This document shows positions 18,751-63,860 of a DNA stretch of 64,000 nucleotides, in pieces. A program made the position numbers and the translations under genes. The notes beneath the pieces are model-generated. The model searched no databases. It was not told the DNA's origin and worked only from the letters and a program-made list of their open reading frames with translations. Source of the stretch: Pseudomonas sp. SCA2728.1_7 (GTDB lineage Bacteria > Pseudomonadota > Gammaproteobacteria > Pseudomonadales > Pseudomonadaceae); the NCBI RefSeq assembly GCF_018138145.1, contig NZ_CP073104.1:5726001-5790000 (forward strand). The letters are read 5' to 3'. Position 1 is the first letter of the stretch. Every line of letters starts with the position of its first letter.

Positions 18751-19737
18751 TCACTCCAGGCCCGGCGCTTCACGAATAATGAAGTGGTCCAGGTTCTCGA
18801 TATTGGCATTGAAGACCTCGAAAGGCTTTTCGGGGTTCTTCTTGCCGGGCACCTGCCTCAACTCCGGCGTCACCCCATAGAAGAAACAGAACAACGCCTT
18901 GTCGCTATCCGCCGCGTGCTTGATCTCTTCCAGAAACGCCTTGCGCTTGCGGTAGTTGTCGATCAGCTTCTTGTTCAGATAAACACTGACCGGATACGGC
19001 TTCTTCTTACTGTCCTCGGGCTTCTTGAACCAGACCTTGTCCTCGAAATCGATACGAAAACTGGCACTGTGGAAGTCCTCGATCTTCTTGATCCGCCCCC
19101 AGTAAATCAGCCCCTTGTTGTCCGTCAGATACTCGATCTTCTTGAAGAACGAACTGTACGGCGCCGTATGCTCACCGACCTTCAACGGCATACGCTTAAG
19201 CAACTCCTTGTCCGCGAAGTTGGAAACAAAACACTCCACTGGATGCGCAAACACACTGGTCTTATCCGGCGCCGACTCACGACTCGCCGACTCTTTACCA
19301 CTGTCCGCCGCCACCCGCACCGGATCATCGCGCAACACATCCACCGCCCCCGCTGGCGCGACAGGCTTGCGCACATACTCACGCCGCGTCAGCAACAACT
19401 CTGACGGGAAGTGCTCCTCTCGCCCGTCATCCACCTCGCCATCCGCCGTCTCAACGCCAGATGCTGAAGCCTTCAAACTCACATACGGACAACCCGCCAC
19501 ATGTTGCGTAGTGGGCAGATTCTTGAAGTGCGGCGTGCGCACGTAATTCACGTTCTTGGCGTTGAACGTACCCAACTCGTTGGACGCCTCGAACGCCGAA
19601 CGACAGGCATCGTTGGGGCACTGGAAGTGTTCCTTCGCAGAGTCAAACGCCACCGTCTCATCGAAATTGAGATCGCGAACGTCATAGATCGACAACTTGT
19701 CGTCGAGGCTGAGGCAGTAGGCGAGATCGAATTTCAT
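18751..19737 (-). CDS. Uncharacterised protein with CoiA-like N-terminal zinc ribbon
   Basis: A 328-residue cytoplasmic protein of unknown function. The first ~95 residues carry a probable zinc site: FQCPNDACRSAFEA, then VRTPHFKN, H of TQHVAGCPY. This FxC..C...HF...H...C spacing resembles the N-terminal ribbon of CoiA-like and restriction-associated proteins. The middle is low-complexity and the C-terminal half (YSSFFKKIEYLTD, IYWGRIKKIEDF) is not one I recognise. It ends three bases from the convergent twin-pair gene. The ATG at 19737 is preferred; a Pro-rich in-frame extension to 19800 lacks a binding site. It is next to an HNH nuclease gene on the same strand. Confidence 0.65.
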   Translation of the reverse strand: MKFDLAYCLSLDDKLSIYDVRDLNFDETVAFDSAKEHFQCPNDACRSAFEASNELGTFNAKNVNYVRTPHFKNLPTTQHVAGCPYVSLKASASGVETADGEVDDGREEHFPSELLLTRREYVRKPVAPAGAVDVLRDDPVRVAADSGKESASRESAPDKTSVFAHPVECFVSNFADKELLKRMPLKVGEHTAPYSSFFKKIEYLTDNKGLIYWGRIKKIEDFHSASFRIDFEDKVWFKKPEDSKKKPYPVSVYLNKKLIDNYRKRKAFLEEIKHAADSDKALFCFFYGVTPELRQVPGKKNPEKPFEVFNANIENLDHFIIREAPGLE

Positions 19738-19921
19738 GGTGGGGCTCGGATCCTTGAGTGGGGGTGGGGTATTAATAGCGGGAGGCGGGGTAGGTTGCAC
19801 TGATTGTTTTCAGGATGATGCGGAATCTGTGGGAGTCAGCCTGCTGGGGATTGGTGGCATCAACTCAATATCGAATCCAGACACCCACTCAGCAGCAAAA
19901 ACTCCCGCTAGTCACAGAGTT

Positions 19922-20638
19922 TTATTCCTCTGGAATCAGCCTTTTCACCCTTTTATAAAGCGAAGCTGTAAACGCCACGCGATCATTCGAATGGTGACAA
20001 CGACGATGGCAATTCGGACAAAGTGCTACAGCGTTCGAGACTTGATCCGAACCCTTATCTGCAAGTGGTTTGACATGGTGGACTTCTAGAAATGGCAGAT
20101 CATGCATTTGAAACGGAGCCGGGTCGCCACAGCCTTCGCAATGCCCCTCAGCTTCATTTCGAACCCAGGCTCTAACCTCGGGGTCGCGTACGTAAACCGT
20201 GCGAGTACTCGACGCTTTCTTTGGTTTCTTTATGCCTTTCGGCGGCTCTTTTATGTGCTTCTTCTGAATTGCAGCAGCGCGACGCTCTAGTGTTTCTTCG
20301 TCGGCTGTCGGAATAGCAGGGTCGCCCGGCTGGAATCCGCGATTTGTGAGAGCTGTTCGAATTAACTGTTCGACATTCGAACCAACGTTTTTCGCCGGTT
20401 TGTAACCCTTAATGGGTTTCCGATCCATCGTCATCAGGACTTTGGAAATGTTCTGCATTCGGAATTCGACAGAGCCTTTTGTACGAGTCGACAAGGCTGA
20501 TGCGCGTAATTCGCGATTCTCATGTGCCTTGTTGAATTTGTGACCCGCGAGCTCTAAATCAAGCATTCTGAGATAGGTGTCAACCGCTGCCTCAATTTCA
20601 GCAACAGTCCAGTCAGTGTCTTTTTTCTTGTCGCTCAT
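19922..20638 (-). CDS. HNH endonuclease
   Basis: A 238-residue nuclease. The C-terminal HNH domain has CEGCGD, then FLEVHHVKPLADKGSDQVSN and AVALCPNCHRRCHH, so both the catalytic HH and the structural Cys pairs are intact. The N-terminal ~95 residues (DWTVAEIEAAVDTYLRMLDL, then SVEFRMQNISKVLMTM) match a domain I recall in front of HNH and restriction nucleases in defence islands. No methyltransferase gene is next to it, so a modification-dependent enzyme is possible. The start ATG at 20638 has no clear Shine-Dalgarno, and a 9-bp hairpin lies 7 bases upstream. It has fewer strong-GC codons than the core genes. Confidence 0.82.
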   Translation of the reverse strand: MSDKKKDTDWTVAEIEAAVDTYLRMLDLELAGHKFNKAHENRELRASALSTRTKGSVEFRMQNISKVLMTMDRKPIKGYKPAKNVGSNVEQLIRTALTNRGFQPGDPAIPTADEETLERRAAAIQKKHIKEPPKGIKKPKKASSTRTVYVRDPEVRAWVRNEAEGHCEGCGDPAPFQMHDLPFLEVHHVKPLADKGSDQVSNAVALCPNCHRRCHHSNDRVAFTASLYKRVKRLIPEE

Positions 20639-20645
20639 AAAATCG

Positions 20646-20666
20646 CCGAGGGTTGAAAACCCTCGG
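20646..20666 (-). other. Hairpin in 5' leader of HNH gene
   Basis: CCGAGGGTT and AACCCTCGG pair perfectly around a three-base loop, ending 7 bases from the HNH start codon. It could serve as a translation control element, or as a terminator for the upstream BRO-N gene, although no T-run follows. Confidence 0.5.
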
Positions 20667-20751
20667 ACGATACTGAGTGGCCATCACGGCTGTCTAGGAA
20701 AATTCCTACAGTAAATAGCGACGGATCTCTCGAGATCCGACAACCACATCG

Positions 20752-21285
20752 CTAACCCATCGAATGCTTCGAAGACTGAAACACTTGCACAACCCTCCGC
20801 CACCAAGGAACCGCTGCCGTAGCCCGCCGTTGGGACTGATCGTTCAACAGGTAGGGCATATCCCGAAGCCTAATCCAGTTCTCATCCTGCCAATGCAGCA
20901 GGCTCAGCGACATTTCGGGCCAGTTCAGCAAACTCAACATCGGCTGATCTGTATTTACCGAGCGTTCCGCATCGCGCAACGTCGGCACAACCAGATGAGT
21001 AAGCCACTCACGCAACAACCGATTTTCCGGGACATAGTGATACACAAGTAGCGCATATACGCCGGACTCGCTGAGCATCAACAGCTTTTCAGGCTGCCGG
21101 TAATAATCAATCCACAAAAAACGATGTTGATCTTTGTCCAGCTTGGCGACCATGCGATCACTGAGATGGACGCCCATCAAGCGACCGATGTCGCGGGCGC
21201 TGAACCATGGTTCGTTTTCGAGAAGGAGGCCGTGCAGATGAAGGCTATGGCGGGTAAATACTGTGGGAGTGTGTGCGTCAGGCAT
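20752..21285 (-). CDS. BRO-N domain protein, antirepressor-like
   Basis: A 177-residue protein with an N-terminal BRO-N domain: LHLHGLLLENEPWFSARDIG, then RLMGVHLSDRMVAKL and LLMLSESGVYALLVYHYVPE with the conserved LREWLT. BRO-N domains bind DNA in phage antirepressors and baculovirus proteins. The C-terminal half (LNWPEMSLSLLHWQDENWIR) has no known domain. The ATG at 21285 follows a strong GGGAGG. It overlaps the end of a small upstream ORF by 8 bases, and an IS3 element has inserted further upstream. Likely phage-derived; role unknown. Confidence 0.8.
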   Translation of the reverse strand: MPDAHTPTVFTRHSLHLHGLLLENEPWFSARDIGRLMGVHLSDRMVAKLDKDQHRFLWIDYYRQPEKLLMLSESGVYALLVYHYVPENRLLREWLTHLVVPTLRDAERSVNTDQPMLSLLNWPEMSLSLLHWQDENWIRLRDMPYLLNDQSQRRATAAVPWWRRVVQVFQSSKHSMG

Positions 21286-21485: not shown

Positions 21486-21551
21486 ATAGCAGAGGTGTTT
21501 TACGCCCACGAGGAATCCATATGTCTAGTCCTGAAATAGGTTTACACCTAT

Positions 21552-22355
21552 TCACCCTAACGCCCGATGCACCGCATCGGGCGTTTTGTATTTTAAGGAA
21601 AGGTGCGGCCGCTCTTGGTTGTAGATCGTAATAGCCTCCCGCACCATCTGTTCAGCCTGTTCTAGATTTTCTGGCCTGTAGAGCAGCAGCTCTGTTTTCA
21701 GAATGCCGTTAACCCGCTCTGCGAGAGCGTTTTGGTAGCAATCGTAGCCATCGGTCATTGAGCAAGTGACGTCATGTTTGGCGTGCAGCTTCTGGTAAAG
21801 ATCAGAGCAGTACTGTGCGCCTCGATCCGAGTGATGCACCAGTCGTTGCTTTGTTCGGCGCTCTTTTAGCGCCTTTCGGAAGGCTTGAGCCACGGATTTG
21901 GCGTGCAGGCTGTCATGTACGTGAAAGCCGACAATTTTTCTCGAGTAAGCATCTGTCACCAAACTCAAGTAAACAGATCCTTCTCGTGTGGGGATGTAGG
22001 TGATATCTGCTACCCAGACTTGTTCTGGGCCGGTCGCAATCACTTGATGCGGGCCAGGTTTCAGGAGGTTGGGATGGCAGCGAAAACGATGATGGCTGTC
22101 AGTCGTCTTGTGATAGGCCCGTTTTCTACGTACCAGTTGTCGATGATCGCGCAAAACATCGAATAGACGATCCCTTCCAACATGCAGTTCTTGTCTCTCG
22201 CGTTTGGCATGCATCATCGAATGTAACTTACGAGTACCGATGCAGGGCTGACGTAAGCGGATCTCATGCACAAACTTGATGAGCTTCTGGTCTTGCTCAA
22301 GCCTGGATCGGTAAGCCCGATCTCGCTTGTAATAGGCTTGGCGACTTATTCCCAT
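21552..22355 (-). CDS. IS3-family transposase OrfB (DDE integrase core)
   Basis: Catalytic part of the transposase. From the first ATG it reads MGISRQAYYKRDRAYRSRLE, an HTH_21-type region (RLRQPCIGTRKLHSMM), then the rve core: first Asp in VWVADITYIPT, second Asp in HHSDRGAQYCSDLY, and Glu in NALAERVNGILKTE. All three DDE residues are present. The C-terminus ends LSLKYKTPDAVHRALG. It is probably made mainly as an OrfAB fusion after -1 frameshifting at 22415-22421, which joins RQVVAQTQTLSVSRACQF in front of this ATG. Confidence 0.93.
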   Translation of the reverse strand: MGISRQAYYKRDRAYRSRLEQDQKLIKFVHEIRLRQPCIGTRKLHSMMHAKRERQELHVGRDRLFDVLRDHRQLVRRKRAYHKTTDSHHRFRCHPNLLKPGPHQVIATGPEQVWVADITYIPTREGSVYLSLVTDAYSRKIVGFHVHDSLHAKSVAQAFRKALKERRTKQRLVHHSDRGAQYCSDLYQKLHAKHDVTCSMTDGYDCYQNALAERVNGILKTELLLYRPENLEQAEQMVREAITIYNQERPHLSLKYKTPDAVHRALG

Positions 22356-22378
22356 AAACTGGCAAGCCCTGCTGACAC

Positions 22379-22774
22379 TCAGGGTTTGGGTTTGCGCAAC
22401 GACTTGCCTGGCCGCTTTTTTACAACGGATACGCCATAGTCATTCTTCAGAACATCGACCACGTCTTCAAAAAATTTGGCTTTCTGATTGGCCAGCGCCA
22501 ATTGTTCTTCAAGCTCTTTGATTCTCTGCTCAGGCGTCAGCGGCAAAGTTGGCTCGTCCATCGGTCGAGTCCTCTGAGAGCGAATGGAGGCGCCTTGGCT
22601 CCAATCCTGCCGACCATGCTTGCGTAACCAAACCAGAACCGTCGACCGGCCTTGAATCCCATAGCGCCGTTGAGCCTCTTTATAACTCAACTCGCCTTTT
22701 TCGACCTGATCGACAACCGACAATTTAAAAGTCAGTGTGTAATCGCGCTGACTCCGCTTTTCGCCCGTCTCCAT
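22379..22774 (-). CDS. IS3-family transposase OrfA (HTH and leucine zipper)
   Basis: A 131-residue DNA-binding protein: the N-terminal helix-turn-helix (LTFKLSVVDQVEKGELSYKE, then AQRRYGIQGRSTVLVWLRKH), and a C-terminal coiled coil (RIKELEEQLALANQKAKFFE). It binds the inverted repeats and regulates transposition. The start at 22774 has GGAGGGTGCA upstream. The slippery AAAAAAG near its end lets a share of ribosomes pass into orfB. Confidence 0.92.
   Translation of the reverse strand: METGEKRSQRDYTLTFKLSVVDQVEKGELSYKEAQRRYGIQGRSTVLVWLRKHGRQDWSQGASIRSQRTRPMDEPTLPLTPEQRIKELEEQLALANQKAKFFEDVVDVLKNDYGVSVVKKRPGKSLRKPKP
22415..22421 (-). other. Programmed -1 frameshift heptamer AAAAAAG
   Basis: In the orfA frame the codons are gtA AAA AAG, the classic A AAA AAG slippery heptamer of IS3 elements. 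Slipping back one base enters the frame that continues, without a stop, into orfB. Confidence 0.85.
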
Positions 22775-23070
22775 TGCACCCTCCTGATAAGAAGCCAGAA
22801 GGTGTAAACCTTATTTAGGACGAGGCAATAGGCAGAAAAAAGCCGCATCTTTCGGGAGCGGTCAGGCCGCTACTTGAGGCGTTTCTTAGGCGCCGGGTCA
22901 TTGAGCTTATTTGCTTCGCGAGAGGCAGTCAAGTGGAAGGCTTACGCCGAAATAATAATTGTAAAAAAAGTTGAAATTTATACGCTTCAGCTATGCTCAT
23001 TAATCATTTTCTATGTGGTTTGCTTGTGTTGGTTGCAGTTATGTCTGTCAGAACTATCAGGGAGTAGGAA

Positions 23071-25446
23071 ATGTTTAAGAAAATAAAAAGAATTAAGAAT
23101 GTAGCGGTTTATTCAGATTTTGATTGGGATGCTTCAGTAAGGGAGTCGGGTGGGCGGATAAGTGAGTTCAAAGGAATAAACATAATCTATGGGAGGAATT
23201 ACTCTGGGAAGACAACTCTTTCAAGGATTTTTAGATCCTTGGAGACTGGGTTTATCTCTGATAAATATATATCGCCAAAGTTTGAGTTTGAGTTGAGTGC
23301 TGGCGGGGTGGTTAATCAGGATCAGATTCCTTTGAAGCAACATAAGGTGAGAGTGTTTAATGAGGATTTCGTTAGGGAGAATTTAAAGTTTATAAGTAAT
23401 GCTGATGAGAGTATTAAATCTTTCGCCATACTAGGTGAGGATAATAATCGCTTGGAAGAAGAAATTAAGCTTAAGGAGGAGGCTCTTGGTTCGGAAGAGG
23501 ACGGGGTGGGGAAGCTAGGAGTAGAGAAAGAGAAGAAACTCGCGCTCGGTGTTGCTCGTAAAAACGCTCAAGACGCTCAAGATTCTCTGGACTCAAAGAT
23601 TTCGGATAAAGCTAATAATAAAAACACCGGAATAAAACATAATAAGATTTACGGAGAAGCAACCTATAACGCGCCGAAGCTCCTAAAAGATGTAGAAACT
23701 GTTTTGGATGACGGATTTGAGTGCGTGAGTGACGATGAGTCGTTGAATTTAGAAGCCCTGCTTAAAGAAGAGGTTAAGGCGGAAATAGATAGATTTTATT
23801 TTTTTGAACCGTCTTTCGATAAGTTATCCAGTAGAGCAAAGGATCTTGTTGAGAAGAAGATCTCGGTAACTCAGCCTCTTATTGAGTTGTTGGAAGACAA
23901 CCTGTTAGAAGATTGGGTGCGAAAGGGGCGCGCTCTTCATGAGCATAAGCGAGATGATTGCGGATTTTGTGGGGGCGCTTTACCTAGTGGGTTGTGGAGT
24001 AAGTTGGATCTCCATTTTAATAAAGAATCGGAAGAGCTTAGGATTAGTATTTCGAGTCTTTTGTTTGATTTGCAAAATGAAATAAAAAGAGCTGCGGATG
24101 TACCTAAGATAGATGTATCTTCCTTTTACGCGTCCTTTCGCGTCGAGGTATTGAGTGCTGAGGTTGAGCTTAATTCTACTTTAAATAATTATCGAAAATC
24201 TTTAGAAAAATTGGGTGCGGCTTTGGACGCCAGGCTTGCTGATATTTTTCATCCGAAAGTGTATTTTGATGTGGAAGATTATAGTGAGGTTGTGGTAGCT
24301 ATTGGTGAGGATTTGAATGGTGTTGTGAGTAAGTCTAATGAGTTTACCAAAACGCTTGCTACTGAAAAGAATAAGGCTCAAAAGTGTTTGCGGTTAAGAG
24401 ATGTATTTCGGTTTGTTATGGACATAAATTTAGGGGGTGAAAAAGCAAAAATCATCGCTTTGAATACTTGTTCAGATGATGCAGAGCGCGAGTGGAGAGA
24501 ATCGAAATTAGAGGTTGACGTGCTCGTTCGCGAACTTGATAAGTTAAAGGCGCAACTAAAAGATGAAAGCAAAGGGGCTGATCGAGTTAATGTTTATTTG
24601 AACGATTTTTTTGGTCATAAAGCTTTGTCTCTTAAGTCAGAAGAGGTCGAAACGGGCTACAAATTCGAGGTCGTAAGAAACGGGGTTAAGGCTCACCATC
24701 TCAGTGAGGGAGAGTGTAGTTTAATCGCATTTTGTTATTTTATGGCGAAGCTTCATGATGTTGAAACTAAAGGGCATAAGCCAGTCATATATATTGATGA
24801 TCCCATCTCAAGTCTCGATAGTAATCATATATTTTTTATATTTGGCCTGATTAATAGCGAAATCGTGAGGTCGGGTGAGTTTGGTCAGCTATTCGTGTCT
24901 ACTCACAATTTAGATTTTTTGAAATATCTTAAACGGCTTATTCCCAAGGATGTTTCGGGAAAGGCTGAGGAGAGAAGGTATTTCATAATCGAGACTTCTG
25001 GTGATGTAAGCTCGATTAAGTTAATGCCTGGGTATTTGAAATCGTATGTGACTGAGTTTAATTATCTGTTTCATCAAATATTCAAGTGTGCTAATGCGGG
25101 CGATGCGCCTGCGGAGAGTGAGCATGATTGCTATTATAATTACGGTAATAATGCGCGAAAATTTTTAGAGGCTTTTCTTTATTATAAATACCCTAATGCG
25201 GATGAAAAAGATTCGACAAAGTTGGAGAGGTTTTTTGGTGATGATAGTCGTTCTTCATTGCTTACAGAACGTATCCATAACGAGTATTCTCATCTGGCAG
25301 GTGTGTTCGAACGAAGTATCAGTCCTGTTGATGTTCCGGAGATGAAGAGGTCTGCGCAATTTATTCTGAACAAGATGAAAGAAAAGGATGCCGATCAGTA
25401 TTCAGCTTTTATGGAAAGTATAGGTAATCCAGTTGTGACTTTTTAG
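23071..25446 (+). CDS. ABC-type ATPase with zinc hook and R-E-H/HEPN-like C-terminus (RloC/PrrC-like candidate anticodon nuclease)
   Basis: A 791-residue AAA_13-type protein. Walker A is GRNYSGKT at 41-48, the signature LSEGE at 544-548, Walker B VIYIDDPISSLD around 572-583, and the switch His in STHN at 612. A long coiled coil in between is broken by C297-G-F-C300, a zinc-hook-like CxxC. Near the C-terminus R696-xxx-E700 and R734-x6-H741 (also H736) resemble the Arg-Glu-His nuclease triad of PrrC/RloC and the HEPN RNase motif. RloC proteins are of similar length and cut tRNA on phage attack; that function is inferred. The gene is strikingly AT-rich against its surroundings and follows AGGGAG; it ends at a strong terminator. 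No restriction genes adjoin it. Confidence 0.72.
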   Translation: MFKKIKRIKNVAVYSDFDWDASVRESGGRISEFKGINIIYGRNYSGKTTLSRIFRSLETGFISDKYISPKFEFELSAGGVVNQDQIPLKQHKVRVFNEDFVRENLKFISNADESIKSFAILGEDNNRLEEEIKLKEEALGSEEDGVGKLGVEKEKKLALGVARKNAQDAQDSLDSKISDKANNKNTGIKHNKIYGEATYNAPKLLKDVETVLDDGFECVSDDESLNLEALLKEEVKAEIDRFYFFEPSFDKLSSRAKDLVEKKISVTQPLIELLEDNLLEDWVRKGRALHEHKRDDCGFCGGALPSGLWSKLDLHFNKESEELRISISSLLFDLQNEIKRAADVPKIDVSSFYASFRVEVLSAEVELNSTLNNYRKSLEKLGAALDARLADIFHPKVYFDVEDYSEVVVAIGEDLNGVVSKSNEFTKTLATEKNKAQKCLRLRDVFRFVMDINLGGEKAKIIALNTCSDDAEREWRESKLEVDVLVRELDKLKAQLKDESKGADRVNVYLNDFFGHKALSLKSEEVETGYKFEVVRNGVKAHHLSEGECSLIAFCYFMAKLHDVETKGHKPVIYIDDPISSLDSNHIFFIFGLINSEIVRSGEFGQLFVSTHNLDFLKYLKRLIPKDVSGKAEERRYFIIETSGDVSSIKLMPGYLKSYVTEFNYLFHQIFKCANAGDAPAESEHDCYYNYGNNARKFLEAFLYYKYPNADEKDSTKLERFFGDDSRSSLLTERIHNEYSHLAGVFERSISPVDVPEMKRSAQFILNKMKEKDADQYSAFMESIGNPVVTF

Positions 25447-25478
25447 AAGTGTTTTATATATGGCTAAGCGTGTTATAT

Positions 25479-25508
25479 AAAAAAGCCCTGAAGTTCAGGG
25501 CTTTTTAT
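25479..25508. terminator. Bidirectional terminator between ATPase gene and nrdB
   Basis: AAAAAAGCCCTGAA and TTCAGGGCTTTTTA form a perfect 12-bp hairpin with an A-run on one side and a T-run on the other. It can end transcripts from both the plus-strand ATPase gene and minus-strand nrdB. Confidence 0.9.
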
Positions 25509-25538
25509 TTTTCATTAGGAGTGTTGCCTTCGCTAATT

Positions 25539-26789
25539 TTAATCCCAGCTCAACGCCCCACCAGTCTGGTATTCGATCACGCGAGTCTCAAAGAAATTCT
25601 TCTCTTTCTTCAAGTCCATAATCTCGCTCATCCAAGGGAACGGGTTAGTCGTCCCTGGATATTCCTCTTTCAAACCAATCTGCGACAACCGACGGTTAGC
25701 GATGAACTTCAGATAGTCCTCCATCATCGCCGCGTTCATGCCCAACACCCCGCGAGGCATGGTGTCACGGGCGTATTCGATCTCCAGCTGCGTACCCTGC
25801 AGAATCATCTGGGTCGCTTCTTCCTTCATTTCGGCATCCCACAGGTGTGGGTTTTCGATTTTGATCTGGTTGATCACGTCGATGCCGAAGTTCAGGTGCA
25901 TGGATTCGTCGCGCAGGATGTACTGGAACTGCTCGGCGACGCCGGTCATTTTGTTGCGGCGGCCCATGGAGAGGATCTGGGTGAAGCCGCAGTAGAAGAA
26001 GATGCCTTCCAGAACGCAGTAGTAGGCGATCAGGTTGCGCAGCAGCTCTTTGTCGGTGTCCGGGGTGCCGGTTTCGAACTTCGGATCGGAGATCGAACGG
26101 GTGTATTTCAGGCCCCAGGCTGCCTTTTTGGCGACCGATGGGATCTCGTGGTACATGTTGAAGATCTCGCCTTCATCCATGGCCAGCGATTCGATGCAGT
26201 ACTGGTAGGCGTGGGTGTGGATCGCTTCTTCGAAAGCCTGGCGCAGGATGTACTGGCGGCATTCCGGGTTGGTGATCAGACGGTACACGGCCAGTACCAG
26301 GTTGTTGGCAACCAGGGAGTCGGCGGTGGAGAAGAAGCCGAGGTTGCGCATGACGATGCGGCGCTCGTCGTCGGTCAGGCCTTCCGGGTCTTTCCAGAGG
26401 GCGATGTCGGCGGTCATGTTGACTTCTTGCGGCATCCAGTGGTTTGCGCAACCGTCCAGATATTTCTGCCAGGCCCAGTCGTACTTGAATGGCACGAGTT
26501 GGTTGAGGTCGGCGCGGCAGTTGATCATGCGCTTTTCGTCAACGGCGACACGGGCGGAGGCGCCTTCGAGTTCGGCGAGGCCTTCGGCGACGTCGAGGGA
26601 GTTCAGTGCAGCCTTGGCGCGGGCGACAGCGGCCGAGTCGTCGGCGGTCACGGCGCGGGCTTCGATCGCGGCGGCACCGCCAGCGTTGTCGAGGCGGTCC
26701 ATGTTGGCTTCAGTAGCGTGGCCGGCGTTGGCGCCTTTCACGGTTGCTACTTCACTGTCTTCTTTGTCGAATTCGTCCCAGCTCAGCAT
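25539..26789 (-). CDS. nrdB: Class Ia ribonucleotide reductase beta subunit
   Basis: Small subunit that houses the diiron centre and tyrosyl radical for making deoxyribonucleotides with NrdA. The product is 416 residues. After a ~85-residue N-terminal extension rich in Ala and Asp it has [20 protein letters not shown], the iron ligands in [16 protein letters not shown] and [11 protein letters not shown], and a C-terminal tail ending GGALSWD that would dock on NrdA. The start at 26789 ([11 protein letters not shown]) follows AGGAGACGAC; the longer frame to 26951 has no such site. nrdA is not next to it in this window. An NrdR-like box lies 417 bases upstream of the start. Confidence 0.95.
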
Positions 26790-27205
26790 GACGTGTCGTC
26801 TCCTGCGTGAGGGCCTGTGCCCGTGTGAAACCTGATTGGTTGGTTTTTCACACGGTCGTACAGACCGCGTTGGATGTCGTTTTTTGCAGCGATGCACGCA
26901 GGCAAATAAACAGAAATTTTGACGGGTTCCGAGAGCCTCTGATGGGCGCAATCAGCGTTGAACGCTGCTGCGGGGCTTCAGAATGGCTTTTGCTCCCTGT
27001 AAGGGAATATTGCTGACCCGTATGGGGCGGCATTATAGGGAAAAAAACACGGCTGTGCTGAGGCGAATCCGCGCATGGAGCGGTCGAGGAGGGTGGTTTT
27101 TCGACGAGAGTGAGGGTTTACAGGGCTTTGCCGGGGATAGATTTTTTTTCGCAAAAATCTCGCCAATGTGAATTTGCTCAAAAAACAAACAAAAAAATGG
27201 GTTTT

Positions 27206-58804: not shown

Positions 58805-58895
58805 GGAGAGCTGGCCGAGTGGCCGAAGGCGCTCCCCTGCTAAGGGAGTACACCTCACAAGGGTGTCGGGGGTTCGAATCCCCCGTTCTCCGCCA
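58805..58895 (+). tRNA. tRNA-Ser (anticodon GCT)
   Basis: A class II tRNA of 91 bases with a long variable arm. The 7-bp acceptor stem pairs GGAGAGC with GTTCTCC, the anticodon GCT is at 58839-58841, the T-loop is TTCGAAT and the CCA is encoded. It reads AGC and AGU codons. Confidence 0.96.
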
Positions 58896-58960
58896 TTATT
58901 TGCTTAGTACGTCGTAATCTGGCTTTTTCTGTAAGTTGTTGAAATTTATAGAAAAAGTGG

Positions 58961-58988
58961 TTGGAATAGAGATTAGACGGGCTATAAT
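58961..58988 (+). promoter_or_regulatory. Promoter of the tRNA-Arg cluster
   Basis: TTGGAA (58961-58966), a 16-base spacer and a perfect TATAAT (58983-58988) precede the first tRNA-Arg by 14 bases. Confidence 0.75.
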
Positions 58989-59002
58989 GCGGCGCAACAA
59001 AT

Positions 59003-59079
59003 GCACTCGTAGCTCAGCTGGATAGAGTACTCGGCTACGAACCGAGCGGTCACAGGTTCGAATCCTGTCGAGTGCACCA
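59003..59079 (+). tRNA. tRNA-Arg (anticodon ACG), copy 1
   Basis: A 77-base tRNA: acceptor GCACTCG/CGAGTGC, anticodon ACG at 59037-59039, T-loop TTCGAAT, encoded CCA. After A-to-I editing it reads CGU, CGC and CGA. Confidence 0.97.
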
Positions 59080-59150
59080 TTTAAGAGTCAGTTACAGCAA
59101 TGTAAATGACTTGGCTTCAACCAGATGTGATCTGGTCTAAAAACACAAAT

Positions 59151-59227
59151 GCACTCGTAGCTCAGCTGGATAGAGTACTCGGCTACGAACCGAGCGGTCA
59201 CAGGTTCGAATCCTGTCGAGTGCACCA
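59151..59227 (+). tRNA. tRNA-Arg (anticodon ACG), copy 2
   Basis: Identical to copy 1 over all 77 bases. The spacer upstream closely resembles the one before copy 3, so the repeating unit is 148 bases. Confidence 0.97.
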
Positions 59228-59298
59228 TTTAAGAGTTAGTTGCAGCAATGTGAATAACTTGGTTTCAGCCAGTTGTGGTCTGGTCTAAAAACACAAAT

Positions 59299-59375
59299 GC
59301 ACTCGTAGCTCAGCTGGATAGAGTACTCGGCTACGAACCGAGCGGTCACAGGTTCGAATCCTGTCGAGTGCACCA
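59299..59375 (+). tRNA. tRNA-Arg (anticodon ACG), copy 3
   Basis: Third identical copy, 148 bases after copy 2. A terminator follows directly. All three probably share one primary transcript from 58961. Confidence 0.97.
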
Positions 59376-63783: not shown

Positions 63784-63860
63784 GTCTCAGTAGCTCAATT
63801 GGATAGAGCATCCCCCTCCTAAGGGGAAGGTTGGCAGTTCGAACCTGCCCTGGGACACCA
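63784..63860 (+). tRNA. tRNA-Arg (anticodon CCT)
   Basis: A 77-base tRNA: acceptor GTCTCAG/CTGGGAC, D-stem AGCTC, anticodon CCT at 63818-63820 in a 5-bp stem, T-loop TTCGAAC, encoded CCA. It reads AGG. The 140 bases after it contain no clear integrase or attachment-site duplicate. Confidence 0.95.

Follow-up and report, generated by a model that had tools for sequence, protein, structure and literature searches.

The RloC family was named in 2008, and passages of that report delimit the group by ABC-ATPase motifs, a coiled-coil insert with a CxxC motif, a length of 658-897 amino acids (aa) and an R-x3-E-x36-52-H pattern, in which a serine often precedes the histidine (PMC2610378). According to passages of PMC2610378 and PMC3874168, the activity of GkaRloC from Geobacillus kaustophilus is turned on by its ATPase and linear DNA, the wobble nucleotide is excised, and a change of a hook cysteine raises activity; AbaRloC from Acinetobacter baylyi is switched on by inducers of DNA breaks, and its targets are tRNA-Glu and tRNA-Gln. 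Alanine at any of R692, E696 and H737 abolished the activity of GkaRloC (passage in PMC2610378). PrrC, the tRNA-Lys anticodon nuclease of the EcoprrI locus, is described in part of the same source as 341-416 aa long and lacking a zinc-hook insert (PMC2610378). Here we analyse a gene, rloC, at 23071..25446 (+) of a 64,000-nucleotide stretch of DNA from Pseudomonas sp. SCA2728.1_7 (the window; positions 5726001-5790000 of a one-contig genome of 6,782,730 bases, completeness 100), which, judged by its sequence, very probably encodes a stand-alone RloC-type anticodon nuclease.

Family assignment

The rloC frame is open from an ATG that lies 6 bases after a GGAG (23061..23064, +), by eye a likely ribosome-binding site, and encodes 791 aa, inside the RloC size range. 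The product matches PF13166 with 483 bits over residues 23-766 and the PADLOC model PDC-S06 (PDLC04887), which also covers the RloC family, with 992.9 bits over residues 1-786. Of 7998 candidates scored in a protein search, 1801 matched; 120 homologues were listed, and JGI names at least 20 of these “wobble nucleotide-excising tRNase”. All features of the 2008 definition that can be tested on a sequence, as given in passages of PMC2610378, are present. The protein is a further member of an already described family, a good but ordinary example. An RloC-like anticodon nuclease had been suggested by the original prediction, and the family matches, the motif spacing, the profile alignment to PrrC and the HEPN-like model of the C-terminus all bear this out; its other option, a “still undescribed” RNA-cleaving protein, is unneeded, since the family has had a name since 2008 (PMC2610378, in part).

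With PrrC the protein shares the ABC ATPase and, by profile alignment, the C-terminal active-site residues. Membership of PrrC was nevertheless rejected because the query, at 791 aa with a CxxC insert, is about twice as long, because no linkage to type Ic restriction-modification (R-M) genes was seen among the scanned neighbours and the genome gave no HsdM_N match, and because its score with the PADLOC PrrC model (46.3 bits, highest in the ATPase stretch 530-645) is weak against that with PDC-S06.

Searches of the PDB by phmmer and with two profiles (A2 and A3) found no relative of the RloC family: phmmer gave 0 matches, profile A2 gave 22 (E up to 1), the majority being apolipoproteins, keratins and further helical or coiled-coil chains, with one Rad50 chain at E 0.05, and profile A3 gave a single match at E 0.93. 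In 48 genomes from a genus taken for Acinetobacter, no gene could be recognised as AbaRloC.

ATPase head and zinc hook

Relatives were selected with two ATPase peptide patterns, neither from the C-terminus. Among 399 candidate stretches 328 were confirmed, and the best 80, with 39-58% identity and drawn from several phyla and with one archaeal record among them, were aligned with the query to give 81 rows. Two unusual frames, L043 (no stop in its stretch) and L047 (892 aa), were retained; L076, whose frame is broken, reaches no hook or C-terminal active-site position, and L029 ends with its contig before R734.

The Walker A motif (GRNYSGKT, residues 41-48; 23191..23214, +) is near-invariant in the 81 rows. 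Sequence and alignment likewise place the ABC signature (LSEGE, residues 544-548; 24700..24714, +) and the Walker B motif with the D-loop (VIYIDDPISSLD, residues 572-583; 24784..24819, +), and the switch histidine H612 (24904..24906, +) is kept in all 80 rows that reach it. The CxxC at residues 297-300 (CGFC; 23959..23970, +), both cysteines of which are present in 80 of 80 rows reaching them, lies within the coiled-coil insert and is a candidate zinc hook; long helices flank it in the predicted model. These motifs stand exactly where the original prediction had put them, conserved across the aligned rows.

The architecture resembles that of Rad50 and SbcC in the ATPase head, coiled coil and zinc hook, and a Foldseek search with the whole model matched only Rad50, SMC and related heads, Rad50 being among the best. 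The query differs in having a C-terminal RNase-like domain and in that no Mre11/SbcD partner gene adjoins it. With GkaRloC and AbaRloC it shares the ABC-ATPase motifs, the zinc-hook insert, the size range and the usual location outside R-M loci. Compared through the positions given in published passages, the hook cysteine is residue 291 in GkaRloC and 297 in the query.

The predicted C-terminal nuclease site

Residues 652-791 (25024..25443, +) form a predicted HEPN-like RNase domain, in which 21 of 140 positions are invariant among 79 rows. Two motifs stand out. The first, R696-x3-E700 (RKFLE, residues 696-700; 25156..25170, +), is kept in 80/80 rows; the second, R734-x6-H741 (RIHNEYSH; 25270..25293, +), corresponds to the R-x4-6-H motif of the HEPN superfamily and is kept in 79/79, with R734, N737, S740 and H741 conserved in every row that reaches them. 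The distance from E to H ranges from 37 to 45 residues across the alignment. In the query, R696-x3-E700-x40-H741 together with S740 fits the R-x3-E-x36-52-(S)H pattern of RloC, and the x40 spacing is the same as in the R692/E696/H737 triad of GkaRloC, again by positions taken from published passages. Profile alignment to PrrC with hhalign (probability 97.8, E 6.9e-13) paired R696, E700, R734, N737 and H741 with their PrrC counterparts.

This pairing, and the 80/80 rows, uphold the earlier observation that R696 and E700 have the R-x3-E spacing of PrrC. Either H736 or H741 had been put forward as catalytic; H741 is the candidate that the sequences favour because it is found in 79/79 rows, and H736 was rejected because residue 736 is Asn in 66 of 79 and His in the query alone. 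Similarly, reading R734-x6-H741 as a HEPN motif holds, whereas treating it as a competitor of R-x3-E does not: since hhalign pairs both with PrrC residues, the two motifs appear to be one site.

Of the profile and fold checks once proposed for this region, hhalign pairs the site with PrrC, and the chains closest to the C-terminal model are HEPN RNases, at modest scores and with no Foldseek match at E <= 0.001. The likeness to HEPN RNases such as HepT toxins and Las1 comprises the R-x6-H motif and, in the model, a helical arrangement that appears similar; the query differs from them in that its domain is fused to a Rad50-like ATPase with a zinc hook.

We propose that the Rad50-like head and the zinc-hook coiled coil would keep the C-terminal HEPN RNase silent until linear or broken DNA together with ATP releases it. 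The anticodon loop of tRNA would then be cut by R696, E700, R734 and H741, probably with loss of the wobble nucleotide; translation would halt, and the phage could not complete its cycle. From the assayed RloCs we carry over, by inference, the activation by DNA ends, the cleavage of tRNA with excision of the wobble nucleotide, and the role in defence. Could such a protein, with the same architecture, have its main target elsewhere, in another part of tRNA, in mRNA or in rRNA? The RNAs cut by HEPN domains that carry this motif differ (PMC3710099, in part), and the branch of the query is distant from PrrC. However, the triad is spaced exactly as in GkaRloC, whose anticodon nuclease activity has been assayed, and the protein has the RloC architecture throughout, so we regard a different target as unlikely.

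Restriction-modification genes and distribution

PrrC-like control, in which a second-line nuclease is silenced in trans by a type I R-M enzyme, was also considered. Passages by the RloC authors entertain control in trans, and the surroundings of the relatives offer some encouragement: among the 76 of 80 loci whose neighbours could be read (four were excluded because their length was odd or their frame could not be located), clusters of HsdM- and HsdS-like genes, named by our reading of the sequences, occur at 15 loci each and HsdR-like genes at 16. No hsd gene was found among the scanned neighbours of the query rloC, and, in contrast to PrrC, no type I R-M genes adjoin it. The one-contig genome gave no match to HsdM_N, a search positive in 9 of 14 control genomes and confined to this single family, which an unusual type I or a type III system could escape. 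This result favours RloC-like self-sensing, and silencing of the query by an R-M enzyme seems very improbable. The absence of adjoining R-M genes had been predicted and agrees with what we find, with the caveat that an HNH gene with type IV-like similarity lies 2.4 kb upstream, past an insertion sequence (IS).

Loss of nuclease function, leaving an ATPase for DNA repair or regulation, is what Rad50- and SMC-like heads at the top of the whole-model fold search might suggest. This can be dismissed almost entirely, given that every row reaching R696, E700, R734, N737 and H741 keeps these residues and that the gene is sporadic, with relatives above 570 bits in 5 of 149 genomes of the genus, the query's own included.

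The query genome holds only one further PF13166 stretch, below threshold. None of 50,697 phage records contains a match that extends over 80% of the query; 9 match in part, four of these being annotated “translation-disabling ACNase”. Of 72,556 plasmid records 186 match, 11 of them across 80% of the query or more, all at less than 60% identity.

An exchanged segment beside nrdB

The base composition of rloC sets it apart from its surroundings, with a GC content of 0.39 and a third-position value (GC3) of 0.38 against a GC3 of 0.75 in nrdB and 0.76 in acs, in line with the AT-rich codon use noted originally. The right neighbour, nrdB (25539..26951, -; ribonucleotide reductase small chain, PF00268 310.5 bits), faces rloC. 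A terminator-like hairpin lies between the two genes (25480..25506, +); it is a consensus match only, with 2 such hairpins found against 2.3 expected in shuffles.

The nrdB regions of ten relatives (L143-L152) were compared by blastn, and none of them has a DNA match to rloC at this site. The sequence to either side is common to relatives: in L145 and L152 the matches run up to 22894 and resume from 25541, so the interval 22895..25540 is an exchanged segment carrying rloC. Defence-family matches occupy the site in five of the ten relatives: a C5-methyltransferase with Vsr and an EcoRII-like protein (L143), BstA (L144), PDC-M38A and B (L145), SspB, C and D (L148), and a C5-methyltransferase with an NsnA/GmrSD-like protein (L151). 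In two (L146 and L147) the site is nearly empty, with about 0.39 kb between the Bro-N match and nrdB, and in three (L149, L150 and L152) it holds genes of ordinary GC. The PADLOC scan covered 17 proteins of the site, four of which had no match. The low GC3, the exchanged segment and the sporadic presence fit a horizontally moved defence gene. A literature search for a Pseudomonas defence hotspot at nrdB returned no paper, and the site may still be published.

Upstream of rloC lies an element (21522..22827, -) with inverted repeats and two open reading frames (ORFs; 21552-22355 and 22379-22774) with rve and helix-turn-helix domains, from which we read it as IS3-like. It is absent from L145, where the equivalent of 21521 joins directly to 22829. 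The HNH gene (19922..20638, -; PF01844) has partial similarity to type IV restriction proteins, matching PADLOC mREase_IV with 107 bits (108-234) and PDC-S36 with 96 bits (6-148), and a Bro-N gene is also found upstream. A 349-aa ORF (18751-19800, -) has no Pfam, PHROG or PADLOC match and has DNA matches in L143-L147. The interval 19865-20854 between it and the Bro-N gene varies, holding the HNH gene here, a gap of 226 bases in L143 and other ORFs in L144-L147. Elsewhere in the window, tRNA-Ser(gct) is followed by three tRNA-Arg(acg) at 58805-59375, and tRNA-Arg(cct) lies at 63784-63860.

A link to SbcD and SbcC in relatives

At 7 of the 76 readable loci (L003, L004, L007, L010, L012, L027 and L064) an SbcD-like gene is found within the four nearest ORFs on either side of rloC, and six of the seven also have an SbcC-like gene, before or after rloC; L066 has a more distant Mre11-like gene. 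These names are our reading of the sequences, confirmed for the L064 pair beside rloC, which matches the SbcD and SbcC families. The rloC and sbcD frames share a few bases in L007, L010, L012 and L064. A tree built from 78 rows places the query together with L003 and L004 (Shimodaira-Hasegawa-like approximate likelihood ratio test 98), both SbcCD-linked, and the SbcCD label requires 3 changes, a number as low in 3 of 500 shuffles. The tree was made by a quick method, the composition of the query was flagged, and closer homologues from the protein search, which come with no DNA context, were left out. Of six genomes with such a locus, four have one close SbcD, that of L064 has two and that of L007 two partial matches; with a single close copy in four of six, it seems that often no SbcCD other than the one next to rloC was found. 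Little more on gene order came from searching 369 genomes of the class for relatives of the L064 RloC.

From the neighbouring genes, the overlaps and the tree grouping, we tentatively suggest that RloC of this branch works with SbcD-SbcC, such that SbcCD would open or present the DNA ends of an invader and RloC would read them and stop translation. In the query genome, where an SbcD-like gene lies at 1.27 Mb and rloC at 5.75 Mb, the solo gene would use the host SbcCD in trans. We consider this cooperation possible but doubtful. The literature passages retrieved on RloC, SbcC and SbcD describe no operon; the link may already be known through Table 1 of PMC2610378, a part of which lists “linkage to cellular DNA metabolism genes 10/73” with the genes unnamed.

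Significance

Does RloC alone restrict phages? Cleavage of tRNA and activation by DNA-break inducers are already published for the family (passages in PMC2610378 and PMC3874168). In passages of other published work, RloC is listed as not tested against phages in S. thermophilus (PMC12322248), RloC is called of unknown function in a P. syringae survey and is associated with susceptibility in a panel of that species (PMC12447246), and PDC-S06 is predicted in 38 P. aeruginosa strains, 74.4% of them resistant (PMC10855318); the published correlations on RloC and PDC-S06 conflict in direction. A stand-alone RloC in a one-contig genome without an HsdM_N match is a clean case for this question. The gene also marks a site beside nrdB where relatives swap defence-type genes.
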